Made by a program: the position numbers and the translations under genes. 64,000 nt of DNA from Isoetes taiwanensis (taxonomy: Eukaryota; Streptophyta; Lycopodiopsida; Isoetales; Isoetaceae): positions 620,001-684,000 of the forward strand of contig JAJEKV010000224.1 in NCBI GenBank assembly GCA_021234155.1. The letters run 5' to 3'. Shown here piece by piece: positions 15,150-40,369 of the stretch. Each line of letters starts with the position of its first letter. Positions within the stretch are counted from its first letter, which is position 1. The notes under the pieces are model-generated. The model saw only the letters and a list, made by a program, of their open reading frames with translations, searched no databases and had not been told where the DNA came from.

Positions 15150-16063
15150 GAAAGGTTTAGATAGAGTTCTGTATGTTGGAGATTTGTTTAAAGAAGAAGA
15201 TAGTACCTTTGTCACGAATTTCTTTGATGATTGGAAAGATATTTTTGCCTGGGATTATGATGAATTGGTTGGTGTTGACAAAAGTATTTGTGAGTTTGAG
15301 ATAAAGATTAAAGAAGGTATGAAACCTGTGGTACAGAAACTCAGAAGAATTAATGCATCCTTGTTAGGACTAATTAAAGAAGAGTTATATAAAATGAAGG
15401 ATGCAGGTGTAATTGCAGAAATTGTGAACCCTGAATGGTTATCTTGCATTGTCAGAAAAAAAAATAAAACCATCAGGATTTGTATTGACTATAGAGATTT
15501 AAATAAAGCCACAATCAAAGATTGCTACCCCTTACCATTTCTAAAGGAGGTTTTGCATGCTGTTGCAGGTAAAGATATATATATATTCTTTCTTAGATGG
15601 TTTCTCAGGTTTCAACCAAATAAGCATAAAGGAGGAAGATCAGCCAAAGACCTCATTCTTCACACCATGGGGAACATTTGCCATGAAGAGGATGCCCTTT
15701 GGACTAATGAATGCATCTGCAACATTCCAAAGAGCTATGGACACAATTTCCAAAGACATGCCTGCTAATGCTTTTTCGTGTCTTCTTGGATGATCTTTGC
15801 TTAGGAACCTCCCTCAAGAGTCATTTTGATGTTCTAACTAAGTTGTTTGCCTTGTGCAGGAAAGGGGGAGTCAGCTTGAATCCAAAAAAATGTGTTTTCT
15901 TGTCTTCAAAAGGAGAACTGCTTGGACATGTGGTGTCTACAAAAGGCATTCATGTGGCTGAGACCAAGCTTGAGGCTTTAAAAAAGTTGGCACCTCCCAA
16001 GACACTCAAACAGGTAAAAAGCTTCATGGGAATGACCAGTTTCTTCAGAATGTATGTCCCCCA
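15150..16063 (+). pseudogene. Gypsy reverse transcriptase, interrupted by CACTA
   Basis: The entry region has DIFAWDYDELVG and VQKLRRINASL, typical of Tat-like RTs. Palm motifs follow: IRICIDYRDLNKAT, PFGLMNASATFQ, and the active site VFLDDLCLGT (FLDD in place of YLDD or YVDD). The connection motif ELLGHVVSTKGI and the start of the tether SFMGMTSFFRMYVP come last, where CACTA enters. Frame changes lie near 15,570 and 15,775. The homology resumes at 19,731. Confidence 0.85.
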
Positions 16064-16084
16064 CACTACAAGAGAATGCCATGC

Positions 16085-16515
16085 TCAAGGCCGGAAAATA
16101 CGTCGGAAAAATCTTATGTGTTTTCGGTGAGAATCGCCTAATTTTTTTTTAAAAATTACGGAATTTAAAAAGTTCCGGCGAAAATCGATGAAAAATCGAC
16201 GATAAATTTTTCGACGAAAAGTCCGAGGAATAAAATGACGCAAAATCGGCGAAAATCGGCGATATTTGTGGCTTAAAATTTGTGAAAAATCGTGAATATT
16301 TTTGACGATTAATCGACATAAAGTCGGCCCGAATAAAATGGCGCAAAATCGACCCGAAAAACTTGTGAAATTTTTGGCCTTAAAATTTGACGAAAAAATC
16401 GACGAATATTTTTGGCGATTAATCGGCCTTAAAATCGGCGAATAATGTGACGAATTTTTTTCGACGATTAATCGGCGAAACCGGCGAATGTTCGGCGATT
16501 CGTTGCGTCCAAGAT
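16085..16515. repeat. Left subterminal repeat array of CACTA
   Basis: Dense degenerate copies of CGGCGAAAATCG, GACGAAAA and TTCGACGATTAATCGGC on both strands across ~430 bases. Such arrays are the usual transposase-binding subterminal regions of CACTA elements. Confidence 0.75.
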
Positions 16516-17468
16516 ATTCATCAAAATATTCGTCAGAATGTCTGACATGGATTTGTTAGCTTTAGGTCAACATTACAGGTTTCCAGACTTATTTGTAGAA
16601 GTTGCATGACTTCATACATACCGGATTAATTAAGCATAAGTCATGCCATATGAAGACTTGAAAGATTCAAAACTATAATGCAAGTGTCTACCATGGTCTA
16701 AGCCTTGAAAACCTCATAGAATTCATGACCCTTTGGTTTTTATTCCTTATTAAACCATGGGCGAAGTTTTCCAAAGTCAAGAATACAGGAATATACATGA
16801 TTTATACCATGGAAATACCCTTGGCACTGTATCGTAACCAATGATAGATAGATAGGCAATAAATATTAAAGGTATATTACATACATACTAATACCAATTC
16901 ATCATACAAAATATACCCCCAGGGGGGTTGCATACCTCCTCCATTCGGTATAAAGATTCAAGGGGTAAACATAAAAATACAATAACTAGGGGCTCTCGCG
17001 GTATATGTACAAGCAACCCCCTGCATACATACCCAAATTAGACCATATGCCCATGGGGGACTCTTACCTCCACTGTAGGGAATATTATACAATTCTAAAC
17101 AAGGGATCAATTTGATCTCAAGGCCTTCCATAACATTGAGGCAGGAGGGAAATTCGACATCGATCCAAGAATTTGTATAAGCAATTTATATGTACAAAAA
17201 CTTTAGATTTTTGCGTGTATTTGTATGGAGCACTCTATGTATTTACTGTGTATATATTTAATAACAATGGTTTGAAACAAGGTATTTTGCTAGTGACTTA
17301 ATGGTTGCTAGTTTTCCTTAAATTATCCCGTCTATTTTAATTATACCTTTGCTTACCCTTACATCATGTTAAAATTTGAATACCTAAATCCCTAAAAAAA
17401 GGGAATACCTAAATCCCTAAAAAAAGGCGGAAGCTTTAAGCTGTATCGCGGGCAACTCAAAAGCGGCT
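16516..17468. other. CACTA interior 5' of captured gene
   Basis: No coding domain is recognised. A 19-base phrase GAATACCTAAATCCCTAAA is tandemly repeated near 17,378-17,425, shortly before the RETICULATA-like start codon. This stretch may include the captured promoter, but no TATA element can be assigned with confidence. Confidence 0.4.
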
Positions 17469-18931
17469 ATGGCAGAAAAGGTTTGGAAGATCGAGCCGGC
17501 CATGGCGTGTAGAGTTTTAATGCAGGCTTCCTATTCCGGTGCTTCTGCTGATGGCAAGCTTCTTGGCGATGGCAAAGGCTGCCCCAGAAACTTCCGACAG
17601 CTCCAAGGTACTTTCTTCTTTTCCCCCTTTCGGTTTTGCTTTTGAGAATCTATGATCTATGAATCTTTTCAGAGGCTTATGTGGAGGATCTATGAATCGT
17701 TGGAGTACTGGCGGCTATGGCATATTTGCACATGCTGGATAAGCCAGCGCTGGATAAGAGTTCCTGGGCCAGATTTGGCACGAAATGCGCATTTCCTGTA
17801 TACGATTTTCCTCAGAGGTATTATTTGTTGTTGCTTGCTTGATTCTTGTTCGCTGGCCTGATCTTCAACTATATAAACCATGTCTGTTGGCTCTGTTTAG
17901 AACTAATAGAACACTGGAATACTGAAACAGAGGTAAAACCTGAAGCTATATTAGATGATAGTGATGGTGGATCAGGAAAAGATGGCAGTGATAACAATGG
18001 GTGGGGTCATGGAGGCAGTGGCGGCAGTGGAGGGGATGGATCATGGGGTGACAATGAAGAGGAAGGATGGAGCAAAAGCTGGAATGATGGGTTTTTTGAG
18101 CTTCTATGCAGCGGTTGGCATGCTAGGGTAAGAACTGACCCTCAGTTTCCTTTCAAGCTTCTTACAGAAGAAGTGATTGGAGTTGGTGCATGTGTTATAG
18201 GAGATATGGCATCACGCCCTAATTTTGGTCTTAATGAGCTTGATTTTGTTTTTTCAACACTTGTTGTGGGATGCATTCTCAATTTCGTTCTGATGTATAT
18301 GTTAGCTCCCACATCTGCCAGTGCAGCAGCTGCATCAAAACTTCCTGGTGTTTTTGCTGGCTGCCCCTCAGGCCATATGTTTGAACCAGGTGCATACACT
18401 GTAGTAGATCGAGCGGGGACTTTTTTATATAAGGGAGCTCTGTTTGCTGTAGCTGGCTTTGCTGCAGGTATTGTTGGCACTACCATCTCTAATATGTTGC
18501 TTGATGCTAGGAAGAAGGTTGACACCAATTTTGTGCCGCCAAATAAACCACCGCCAACATTGTTGAACGCAGCTACCTGGGCTCTCCACATGGGTCTCAG
18601 TAGCAACATAAGATATCAGGCTTTGAATGGCCTGGAATTTTCAATGGCAAAGATGCTTAATCCTGCTGTCTTTAAAGTCTGTGTTTTTGTAATCCGAGGT
18701 TTGAACAATGTGCTTGGTGGCACTTCTTTTGTAGTGCTTGCACGATTGACGGGGGCACAAAAGGTGGAGAAACCATCCTTGGACATGGTTGCAATTGAAG
18801 ATGTGAAAGTTCTAGAGCAGCAGGAAAAGAAAGTTCTAGAGCAGCAGGAAAAGCAAAATAAAGAAGGAAGAGCAGCAAAGTTATGCGAGCAGCAGGAAAA
18901 GCAAAAGGAAGGAGGAGCAGCAAAGTTATGA
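17469..18931 (+). CDS. RETICULATA-RELATED (DUF3411) protein, two exons, inside CACTA
   Basis: I model exons 17469-17607 and 17901-18931. The donor is AAG|GTACTT, the acceptor is TTTAG|AACTAA, the phases match, and the joined frame is 389 codons without a stop. DUF3411 proteins are plastid envelope proteins affecting mesophyll and vein development. The N-terminus is small and basic/Ser-rich as for a transit peptide, followed by an acidic Gly-rich linker (~residues 60-105). The conserved core contains GDMASRPNFGLNELDF, VVGCILNFVLMYMLAP, MFEPGAYTVVDRAGTFLYKG and a C-terminal LARLTG. Hydrophobic segments match membrane spans. Odd point: the tail has repeated EQQEK units. A second ATG at 17,502 is an alternative start. 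Expression from within the transposon is unknown. Confidence 0.8.
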
Positions 18932-18950
18932 GATTAGGTTAAGGTCCCTC

Positions 18951-19040
18951 GCCATTCCAAATTTTTCCTCTGATATCGCCATTTGTTAATATATTGCCAT
19001 TCCAAATTTTTCCTCTGATATCGCCATTTGTTAATATATT
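18951..19040 (+). repeat. Exact 45-bp tandem duplication 3' of RETICULATA-like gene
   Basis: A 45-base unit starting GCCATTCCAAATTTTTCC is present twice in exact head-to-tail copies just after the stop codon. The identity suggests a recent duplication. Confidence 0.9.
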
Positions 19041-19429
19041 GCTTTGCCCAATGTTAGAATGAATATGGCAGAGGCCATTGGATTATTTCTGTTGAGAAGA
19101 ATGTGCACTTAGAAGACGCCATATGTGGCAAAAGTACTTTCAGAAATTCTAATGCTGATATTACTTTGATGCAGTTTGCTGGAGTCCATTGCCCATGATC
19201 TTTGTTGGCATTGTACAGATTGTCAATTCTTGACATGTAACTATGATTATATTTGAATACAGAAATTTTTCTTTAATATACACTCTTTATCTCTTTATGA
19301 ATGTATACCCTGTTAAAGCTAAATATCATTATAAAGAAATCATCCAGATAAAATGCAAATATGCCAAAATTATGAAAAAAATGAGAATGCTGAAGAAAAT
19401 GTGCTAAAGCACTTATGAAGCATATGACG

Positions 19430-19727
19430 AATATTGTGACAAACCTGACGAAAAACCTGACGTAAAAAACGGGACGCATGCTATGATTTAATATTTCGAT
19501 GAAAAATATGATTTAAAATTACGACGCTTAACTCGGCGAATATTACGACAAGAAATTTCGATTTAATTTGGCGTCCGAAAACAACGAAAATGCCGACGCA
19601 AAAATCGACGATTTTTCGTCAGAGAATATACGTCAGAATATGCGTCAGCCCTATGAGTCTGGGCAATTGCCTATTTTGTAAAGGGTTTCTGACGATTTTT
19701 CTGACGCAAAACAGGTTTTCTGTTGTA
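19430..19727. repeat. Right subterminal repeat array of CACTA
   Basis: Repeated CGACGAAAA, CTGACGAAAAACC, TTTTTCGTCAG and ACGTCAGAATATGCGTCAG motifs mirror those of the left array and end at the terminal TTGTAGTG. The arrangement supports the element boundaries. Confidence 0.75.
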
Positions 19728-19730
19728 GTG

Positions 19731-20270
19731 CCACTTCTCATACACTATGAATTCAATTTCCAACCTCACAAAGGTTGGAAATTTTTCCAAAAATGAAAGC
19801 AAGCACATTCTGGTTGATTGGAATGAAAAGTGCCAGGAATCTTTTGACAAAATCATTAATGCCATATGATATTCCATCTTGCTAAAACCCCCAGATTTAG
19901 AAAAGCCCTTCAAAGCTTATATCAATGTCACTAAAAAGGCAATTGGTGTTGCTTTACTACAAGAGGATCATATAATTGCTTCTGCAAGCAAAATGTGGTC
20001 AGATACTGAGCTAAGATATCCTAGACTGGAAAAGAGTGCAACAGCTCTCATGTTCCTGATAGAGAGGCAGGGATATTTGCTACAAAACAGCCAAGTTCAG
20101 GTCTTTATGAGGCAAAATCCTTTGTCACTCCTTTTTGCTAAAAAGCAACCCAAAGCAAAGTTGTGCAGGTGGGCCCGTAAAGTCCAAACCTATAATATTA
20201 CTGTAAAAGTTGTCAATTTGGTGGAAAATCCCAGTGCATATCTGCCTTATGTTCTATTTGAACACGAGGA
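19731..20270 (+). pseudogene. Gypsy RT tether and degenerate RNase H
   Basis: Sequence resumes with the RT connection motif DWNEKCQESFDKI, then an RNase H fold with pieces such as KAYINVTKKAIGVALLQ, YPRLEKSATALMFL and LVENPSAYLP. At the positions where RNase H usually has catalytic Asp residues (first strand, the TDH motif and the ADALSR end) this copy shows Asn, Arg-Gln and Ser-Ala instead. Only the Glu is clearly retained. The domain therefore looks inactive, in contrast to the upstream RNase H copy. A stop occurs near 19,868. Confidence 0.75.
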
Positions 20271-20429
20271 TCAAGATGGTTTGTGTAATGATGATCTTGT
20301 TACTAACTTGATTGCTTTTCATGCAAGAGACTTAGACTGGCAGTGTGAGATCAGAAATTACCTTGAAAACAATGAAGTGCCAAAGAATTTGAGCAGTAGT
20401 CAAGAAAGGAGATTTAAAGATAAATGCAA

Positions 20430-21200
20430 AAAATTCAGGCTCATTGAGAATGTATTGTGTAAAGTTGACAAGGAAGGAGTATTGCTGAGATGTGTAGATG
20501 ATGAAGAGGCTAGAATGATCATTGAAGCGTGCCATGAAGGAATATGTGGAGGACATTTTGCTGCTGACACAACTGCAAAGAAAATCTTGAGGTCAGGATA
20601 TTTTTGGCCTACCCTTTTCAAGGATTGTTATAATGCTATAAAATGCTGCCATAAATGCCAAATCTTCGATAGATGAACCTTACACCCAGCTCCCCTCACT
20701 GGTGTAACCTCCCCAATAGATCCACCTTCTTCAGCTCAACACCAATTTATACTTGTAGCCATAGATTACTCACTAAGTGGGCTGAAGCAATTCCCTTGAG
20801 AGAAGCAAATGCCTATGCTACTGCAAGGTTTCTTCATGAAAATATTTGTGCCAGGTTTGGAATTCCTTTTAAGACTATGTCTGATAGAGGAAGTCAGTTT
20901 GTCAATCAAACAACTACACTATTGCTAGCCACCCTGAAGGTCAAACACACTAAGAGCTCGTCCTATTACCCTCAAGGCAATGGTCAAGCAGAGTCAACCA
21001 ACAAAATTCTCAAGTCAATCCTGAAAAAGACTATTAGCATCTCAAAGAAAGATTGGCACCTAAAACTCCATGATGCACTTTGGGCCTATAGAACCACAAT
21101 TAAAGCTTCCACAAAGCACACACTTTTTAGTTTAGTTTATGGCATAGAGTCAGTAGTGCCTGTTGAATTGGAACTTCCTTCACTCAGATTGGCATACTAG
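20430..21200 (+). pseudogene. Gypsy integrase, zinc finger and catalytic core
   Basis: The HHCC finger is seen as ACHEGICGGHFA with CCHKCQIF. The core has the first Asp in LVAIDYS near 20,755 (frame shifted), the second in MSDRGSQFVN and the Glu in GNGQAESTNKIL, so the full D,D35E triad can be found. The order HHCC then core fits Ty3/Gypsy. Stop at ~20,674 and a frame change near 20,770 interrupt the protein. Confidence 0.85.
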
Positions 21201-30559: not shown

Positions 30560-31302
30560 TCGGTTTTAAACTCGAAAGCCCTGTCCTGCAGAACCCACCG
30601 ACGTTTTCCTTCCTTTCCCTGACAGGGGGCATACTTATTCCACATGTACAATCACCGGCAGCACCTCAAGGTATGGTAGAAGCTTCTGTACAATATGTGC
30701 AGATTTAAATGAGACCCCAGGAATATGTAATTTAGTGATTGATCTGCATACCAGCTCTTGATTACAATGGTGTAAATGTGAACTGGTTTCAGTTTTAAGA
30801 TGTCGGCGGTTGCAGCGGCTATATGTTTGATCCATTGTTCGAGGAAGAATGGACCCCAACTTGTTATCCCATGTGGGCGACCACATTCAGCTGGTTATTC
30901 AGATCTATATAGTGCCCATAGACTCCGGCATGCTACTGCTTGCATTGTCCTGTGGAGGATTCCATTTCATCGATCATGTAAGAATGATCTTACAAATTAG
31001 AGTATGGTTATGTTCACATTATAAGGATGTTGATGTAGAAACTATATTAGTAGCAGAGTTTTCTCTCTTGGACAACCAGTCTCAGGTTGTTTTCTCATGC
31101 GATTTGCTTTATGTATGCTGGATTGATTGCATTGCCAAGCTTTTCTTCTTAATAATTAGACAAGGATGCACTGAGCATCTGTAGGGCATTTTGTACAGAA
31201 AAGAAGTTTATCTCTTGCTCTAGTCTTTACAAGAAAGTGTTCTCTGATGTAATGATAAATAATAGAAGGTCAAACTTCTTATGCAGGGCATCCATTGGCA
31301 TC
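30560..31302. other. Upstream region of expansin gene
   Basis: No protein domain is recognised. This interval should contain the expansin promoter and 5' UTR. A possible acceptor-like TTATGCAG at ~31,280-31,287 raises the option of a 5' noncoding exon. No TATA element can be assigned reliably. Confidence 0.4.
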
Positions 31303-32299
31303 ATGCTGGCGATTTTAGCAACTATTTGTCTTGCATTTGGTGAAGGAATCCTTGGCGCAGGGGCATGGAGCAGTGCTCATGCCACGTTCTATGGTGGAGG
31401 TGATGCAGCTGGAACCATGGGTAAGTCTGGTTCCTTTATGAATACCATACCTAACAGTGAAAAAAGACATGAAAAATCTGATGTTATATTAGAGCAAAAA
31501 TTAGAAGGATATGCAATATTCCACAAAGAGCAACGAGTTTTAGTCTAACAATCTGGTATATCTAATGTTGATGGCAGGAGGAGCTTGTGGTTATGGCAAC
31601 CTCTATAGCAACGGCTATGGCACTCATACCGCAGCATTAAGTAGCGCATTATTCAATGGTGGTCTAACATGTGGTGCATGTTATGAAGTAAGATGTGAAA
31701 CAGGGGCAGATCCAAAGTGGTGTCATTCTGGAAATCCTTCAATTGTTATCACTGCAACTAACTTTTGCCCTCCTAATTATGCTTTGCCAAACAACAACGG
31801 AGGCTGGTGCAATCCTCCATTGCAGCATTTTGACATGGCTCAACCAGCATATGAGCAGATTGCCAAGTACAAGGGAGGGATTGTTCCTGTAGAATTCAGA
31901 AGGTACAATTCATTTTTTTCCCCCAAATATTTTAACTTGGTTAAAAAAATTGCTTAACTCCTTGCCTTATGATGATCTGATGGACTTTCCAGAGTTAAAT
32001 GTGTGAAGAGGGGAGGCATCAGATTCACTATTAATGGCCATTCATACTTCAATCTGATCCTAGTTAGCAATGTTGGAGGTGCAGGGGATGTGCATTCTGT
32101 TTTCATCAAAGGATCTAAAACAGGATGGCTACCCCTGGCCAGAAATTGGGGCCAGGATTGGCAAAGCAACAACTTTCTAGATGGCCAGAGCTTGTCATTT
32201 AGAGTAACCACTAGTGATGGCAAGACTGTCAGCTCCTATAATGCGGTACCTCCAAACTGGAGGTTTGGACAGACGTTCAGTGGTAGCCAATTCATCTAA
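31303..32299 (+). CDS. EXPA: Alpha-expansin (EXPA), three exons
   Basis: Secreted wall-loosening protein that disrupts cellulose-xyloglucan contacts during growth. Exons 31303-31420, 31578-31902 and 31993-32299 join in frame (donors G|GTAAGT and AAG|GTACAA; acceptors GGCAG and TCCAG) into 249 residues, the usual EXPA length. A hydrophobic signal peptide ([12 protein letters not shown]) precedes the GH45-like domain with [53 protein letters not shown] and QHFD, the alpha-expansin HFD motif. The CBM63-like domain follows with [15 protein letters not shown] and ends GQTFSGSQF. Upstream in-frame ATGs at 31,237 and 31,249 would add 22 or 18 residues; 31,303 gives the best length. No defect is visible, so it is probably functional. 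A Copia LTR starts 397 bp downstream. Confidence 0.93.
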
Positions 32300-40339: not shown

Positions 40340-40369
40340 CTAGTAAACGTGTGCCCGGCGTTGCCGGGC
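40340..40369 (-). other. Helitron 3' terminus (hairpin plus CTAG)
   Basis: The 7-bp GC-rich stem with a 3-nt loop (40,353-40,369), nine-base spacer and CTAG at 40,340-40,343 match the fixed architecture of Helitron 3' ends. Such GC-rich hairpins are rare in this AT-rich sequence. Confidence 0.7.

Follow-up and report, generated by a model that had tools for sequence, protein, structure and literature searches.

The lycophyte Isoetes taiwanensis harbors a CACTA-type element that appears to carry a RETICULATA-RELATED (DUF3411) gene with two exons, which raises the question of whether the transposon took up a complete gene and now carries it as a functional second copy, or whether the two exons came together inside the element. 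The element lies at positions 16064–19730 of the stretch of 64,000 nucleotides analyzed here, hereafter the window (G000:C113:620001–684000), and an earlier note, made from the letters of the window, had favored the first of these readings. The genome searched for the parts of the element comprised 1,658,258,908 bases in 1110 contigs; the published I. taiwanensis assembly, based on Nanopore, Illumina, and Bionano data, is described in the text of PMC8566536 as 1658.30 Mb in 204 scaffolds and 909 contigs. As set out below, the element is very probably a non-autonomous Pack-CACTA transposon with nested cargo, and its 389-codon frame a fortuitous fusion. The segments are collected in Table 1.

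Table 1. Coordinates of the features of the element and its flanks in the window.
Feature	Positions	Strand	Evidence
Left flank, Ty3/gypsy pol (reverse transcriptase)	15711..16063	+	RVT_1, under curated cut-off
Target-site duplication, left copy CCA	16061..16063		
CACTA family left end: terminal inverted repeat and subterminal repeats	16064..16622	+	Genome matches; L029/L030 at 81%
29-base filler	16623..16651	+	No match to family members or X at junction
Segment X, repeat at other loci without DUF3411	16652..17922	+	L011–L015, 89–95% identical pieces
Supposed exon 1 (46 codons + 1 base), within X	17469..17607	+	Same open frame in 1/5 relatives
Supposed intron, within X	17608..17900	+	GT...AG present
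5′-truncated single-exon RETICULATA-RELATED (DUF3411) piece and 3′ flank	17923..19166	+	C910/C1055 matches; PF11891
Donor stop TGA, reads TGC here; frame runs 15 codons further, to 18931	18884..18886	+	
45-base tandem duplication in 3′ flank	18951..18995	+	Absent from both donors and three Helitron copies
CACTA family right end	19167..19730	+	Genome matches; L029/L030 at 87–88%
Target-site duplication, right copy CCA	19731..19733		
Right flank, same pol gene (RNase H, integrase)	19734..21200	+	RT_RNaseH, Integrase_H2C2, rve

The element ends, at 16064 and 19730, are CACTACAA...TTGTAGTG, and comparison of CACTACAAGAGAA at 16064 with its inverted partner ending at 19730 showed that 14 of the first 17 bases are identical, forming terminal inverted repeats. 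The motifs CGACGA, CGGCGA, and CGTCAGA, picked after inspecting the sequence, were counted 18 times in the two element ends, where their density in the remaining window sequence would predict about 0.16 occurrences. Two open reading frames of at least 100 amino acids lie inside the element, one encoding DUF3411 and the other, 155 amino acids long, in antisense orientation, and no transposase was found among the frames of this length lying inside 16064–19730. The CACTA termini, the subterminal repeat arrays, and the lack of a transposase described in the earlier note were all borne out in this way, as was the CCA target duplication, present on both sides of the element, and the overall description of a CACTA element with RETICULATA-RELATED cargo was right. 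A target duplication of 3 bases is the usual value for CACTA elements. CACTA target duplications in rice and maize are described in PMC8903248 as 5 nt, and set against that figure the 3 bases found here weigh against a Pack-CACTA origin.

The element is inserted in the pol gene of a Ty3/gypsy retrotransposon, which flanks both of its ends. When the flanks were joined with one CCA retained, a single pol reading frame crossed the site with no stop there, which looks like a clean insertion; the CCA duplication and the continuous pol frame both speak for an insertion at this site.

Genome searches with the left end (16064–16622) gave at least 54 match rows including the window (40 of 99 candidates scored), and most of the long rows stop at query base 559. 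With the right end (19167–19730), at least 44 match rows including the window were obtained (40 of 348 candidates scored), many of which begin at query base 1. After merging of neighboring rows and without the window, these correspond to at least 39 left-end places and at least 41 right-end places, which form at least 20 left-right pairs on the same contig and strand, no more than 40 kb apart and with total spans between 3.1 and 34.4 kb; the widest pairs may perhaps span several elements each. The search for other copies with the same termini, which the earlier note had proposed, therefore revealed a multi-copy CACTA family. The same note had considered that the terminal repeats might belong to different insertions, but both match the ends of members of this one family and the pol frame is continuous, so a single insertion accounts for both.

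Two members out of the 20 pairs were fetched. L029 measures 4790 bases, has both ends preserved, and is flanked by a TTA/TTA duplication; in L030, the first base is altered and the flanking duplication does not match. Both ends of the window element are common to these two members at 81–88% identity, and segment X and DUF3411 are absent from both (2/2). The stretches that L029 and L030 have in common measure about 0.9 kb on the left and 1.55 kb on the right, whereas the window element keeps only 559 and 564 bases, indicating that the family interior was trimmed on both sides and replaced. Transposase_21 is plentiful in the genome, with at least 167 matches when 150 of 2311 candidates were scored, which agrees with a non-autonomous element moved in trans; among the matches listed, none lies between paired ends of the window element's family, a point against a helper from this family.

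The cargo was found to consist of two unrelated parts. A DNA search with 17000–19000 gave matches that divide sharply at 17922/17923. Downstream of this boundary, 17923–19166 matches contig C910 at 98.8% and contig C1055 at 98.1% (main block), and at each of these two loci the donor gene is one uninterrupted, intron-free frame of 414 codons. Around the donor gene, the two loci (L009 and L010) are 97–98% identical for about 8 kb; such a duplication on two contigs would be either a recent segmental duplication or unmerged haplotypes. A protein search of the genome, in which 35 of 35 candidates were scored, gave 23 match rows. The window, C910, and C1055 stood on top, and C4 and C1087, next in rank, were 58–62% identical. 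Among the best 120 of 831 database matches to the donor protein, no near-identical sequence was seen. PF11891 was scanned and found in C1055 and in the window copy, where it covers profile positions 2–177 of 177 with an E value of 6.3e-60, that is, the complete domain. An isolated fragment of the gene, 64 bases identical to window 18366–18429, was also observed at G000:C930:12507499–12507562.

The capture starts at donor residue 95, and the first 94 codons, in which a putative plastid transit peptide is expected, are absent together with the 5′ flank. The captured piece retains the donor GAQ, which fits the GxQ described as a C-terminal motif of RE1 (PMC12449267), and in a crude hydropathy scan the five peaks of the donor recur in the fusion. 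Intron-free members of the family are described elsewhere: AtRER3 and soybean RER3a and RER3c are reported as intronless and RER3b as having one intron (PMC12114778).

Upstream of the boundary, X is a repeat with a distribution of its own. It extends up to 17922 in L011–L014 (17925 in L013) and up to 17720 in L015, with matches starting from 16801 in L011–L013 and from 16651/16652 in L014 and L015, and none of these five loci has DUF3411. X is itself composite, because shorter stretches of it stand alone at C152, C982, C930, C135, C1047, and C1052. The first 22 bases of the supposed exon 2 are also in X. Among the five X relatives examined, the exon 1 frame is kept in L011; it is disrupted by a stop at codon 3 in L012 and L015 and shifted in L013 and L014. 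The GT of the supposed intron is missing from L015, and the AG at 17899–17900 is missing from all four of L011–L014 (TTTATACC there versus TTTAGAAC). A second AG, nine bases downstream and also in phase, is common to the relatives and the window.

X was also considered in two other ways. As a known protein gene it was rejected after Pfam analysis of eight ORFs from X and X-fragment loci, five of which had retrotransposon domains and DUF4216, the only assignments obtained, and three of which had no match (a ninth ORF in the set was the donor gene). As a CACTA part at its other loci it was rejected too, as CACTAC words occur in L011–L015 but no cluster of subterminal motifs was found in L011–L016. 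CACTA-type ends with dense TGACGA/CGTCAG motifs were observed at about 7351–7816 in L017 and about 7651–8159 in L018, a few kb from short X fragments corresponding to window 17715–17808.

Compared with both donors, 17923–19166 has nine single-base differences, a 3-base loss, and the 45-base tandem duplication. The window bases at 18999 and 19001 are common to the three Helitron copies described below, so the donors probably changed there, leaving seven single-base changes. Up to and including the old stop, five codons are private to the window, comprising two silent changes, two replacements, and the change of TGA to TGC, and bases 18859–18860 and 18886 are among those private to it; in the protein search, both donors accordingly show one TGA relative to the window frame. 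As these changes distinguish the window from both donors, either the capture took place before C910 and C1055 diverged, or its source was an allele outside the assembly. Some of the private changes could nevertheless be assembly errors, since the X copies L012–L014, with scattered small indels and odd substitutions, resemble sequence with incompletely corrected long-read errors.

With donor and X in hand, the probability that the element holds an intact, functional copy of a complete two-exon gene is close to negligible. Such a capture would agree with the open 389-codon frame with its GT...AG and with the complete PF11891 domain, but both donors are single-exon genes with 94 additional codons at the start, X occurs with exon 1 elsewhere without DUF3411, exon 1 is open in one of five relatives, the donor stop is lost, and the protein search, with 23 match rows and 35 of 35 candidates scored, showed no host gene of that structure without CACTA ends. 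The claims of the earlier note fared accordingly. The DUF3411 similarity was present on protein search over the full domain, and the frame is indeed open for 389 codons (17469–17607 joined to 17901–18931), but it reaches its stop through a changed donor stop. The intron does have a GT...AG in phase, but it lies in X and the donor is single-exon. The comparison with the donor that the note had called for thus gave a different exon-intron structure, the two-exon gene gave way to an exon 1 and intron belonging to a separate repeat, and the whole gene to one without its 94 start codons and 5′ flank and with an altered stop. What looked like an intact gene in two exons is thus patched together from most of one gene, without its start, and an unrelated repeat.

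A fusion of this kind could still matter if exon 1 of X and the DUF3411 body were spliced and translated, as the protein would then begin differently and might be sent to another place in the cell. The in-phase canonical splice sites, with two alternative in-phase AGs, would allow it, and two published cases point the same way: the soybean CACTA element Tgm-Express1 is described as making chimeric transcripts of captured fragments (PMC1947982), and RE1 with a mitochondrial transit peptide instead of its own is reported to have complemented a yeast transport mutant (PMC12449267). Against these stand the loss of the exon 1 frame in four of five relatives, changes too few to show selection, and a single fusion locus, and a translated chimera is judged very unlikely. 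If true, it would be a recently born chimeric gene, a plastid-transporter-type DUF3411 body whose first exon and N terminus were newly supplied by an unrelated repeat, and a plastid-envelope protein family would gain a member directed elsewhere in the cell. The canonical splice sites and open frame, as in a real gene, and the intact DUF3411 domain do count against a merely fortuitous fusion. Judged from the sequence, the most likely outcome would be at most chimeric transcripts, and a functional protein is unlikely.

The junctions bear on how the cargo arrived. From left to right, the family left end is followed by the 29-base filler, X, the DUF3411 piece, and the family right end, with a few bases at most shared at the joins, and only one locus with the combination of X and DUF3411 was found in the genome searches (protein search, 35 of 35 candidates scored). 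Retrocopies are often 5′-truncated, and the DUF3411 piece, which is both intron-free and truncated at the 5′ side, could be viewed as a processed retrocopy that landed in the CACTA element. The donor is intron-free too, however, so intron loss is uninformative, and there is no A-tract at 19166, where the piece directly abuts the family right end, as it abuts X on the other side. Without an A-tract or a flanking duplication at its junctions, a processed retrocopy was rejected as extremely unlikely.

The junction structure fits end joining after aberrant excision of neighboring elements, which is the Pack-CACTA capture mechanism described in PMC13317346. X and the DUF3411 piece lie head to tail between the family ends. 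Under this mechanism, the DUF3411 piece would have been copied as DNA when neighboring CACTA ends were aberrantly excised and repaired, and the element would have moved by a transposase supplied in trans from other elements. The 389-codon fusion frame would be open mainly because the capture is recent. Cargo-free relatives with the same ends (2/2 fetched) and a donor elsewhere in the genome at 98–99% identity together place the window element among the Pack-CACTAs.

The 3′ end of the same host gene was also found in a second class of transposon. Repeats of about 3 kb at L025, L026, and L028 (C1039, C926, and C1025) cover window 18802–19166 and beyond, and carry about 590 bases of the donor gene 3′ end, 96–99.7% identical to C910. 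All three finish like a Helitron, with a hairpin and then CTAG in front of a T, and L025 and L026 have a TC start in common. A Helitron family has thus separately captured the 3′ end of this gene. A Helitron as the carrier of the window cargo was rejected, as a home-made end pattern had no match in 16064–19730; its single match in the window, a GCCCGG hairpin followed by CTAGT, is at 40343 on the minus strand. Elsewhere in the window, an expansin-like frame was observed at 31565–31957 (DPBB_1, E 4e-22; EXPB1_D1 at cut-off), and the frame just upstream of it (31237–31548) had no Pfam match.

CACTA elements that have taken up host sequence from more than one locus are described for maize and Arabidopsis (PMC8903248) and for soybean (PMC1947982), and captured gene fragments are described in CACTA elements of Chenopodium (PMC8978399). 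Compared with the Pack-CACTAs of Arabidopsis, rice, and maize as presented in PMC8903248, the window element differs in its lycophyte host, its shorter target duplication, and the whole conserved domain held by the captured piece. Like Tgm-Express1 with its five gene fragments, it has several unrelated segments side by side that could in principle be spliced to chimeric frames; in the account of PMC1947982, however, Tgm-Express1 is inserted in an expressed gene, within an intron, and cloned transcripts are available for it, whereas the window element lies in a gypsy pol gene and a transcript from it would be hypothetical. It resembles the Chenopodium elements in having host gene fragments inside a CACTA element, but those are described in PMC8978399 as short fragments beside element coding regions, and here the element's own interior was replaced. 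With RETICULATA and RETICULATA-RELATED proteins, as characterized in PMC12449267 and PMC12114778, the captured piece shares the complete PF11891, a glycine-rich stretch, and a GAQ that fits the C-terminal GxQ, and it differs from its RETICULATA-RELATED donor in lacking the first 94 residues and in a predicted C terminus that is 15 codons longer. No report of a Pack-CACTA in a lycophyte was found by title or opening abstract among the papers listed from an open-licence library.

The window element is therefore another case of the known gene capture by Pack-CACTAs, in a lycophyte host and with donor, cargo-free members, and junctions preserved. Because the donor, the cargo-free members, and base-exact junctions are found in one genome, they give a direct view of the steps by which a CACTA element acquired the greater part of a gene. 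The same case shows how naive gene modeling can mistake such a fusion for an intact gene with two exons, and the presence of the same host gene's 3′ end in a Helitron family makes it useful for asking why genes are captured repeatedly.
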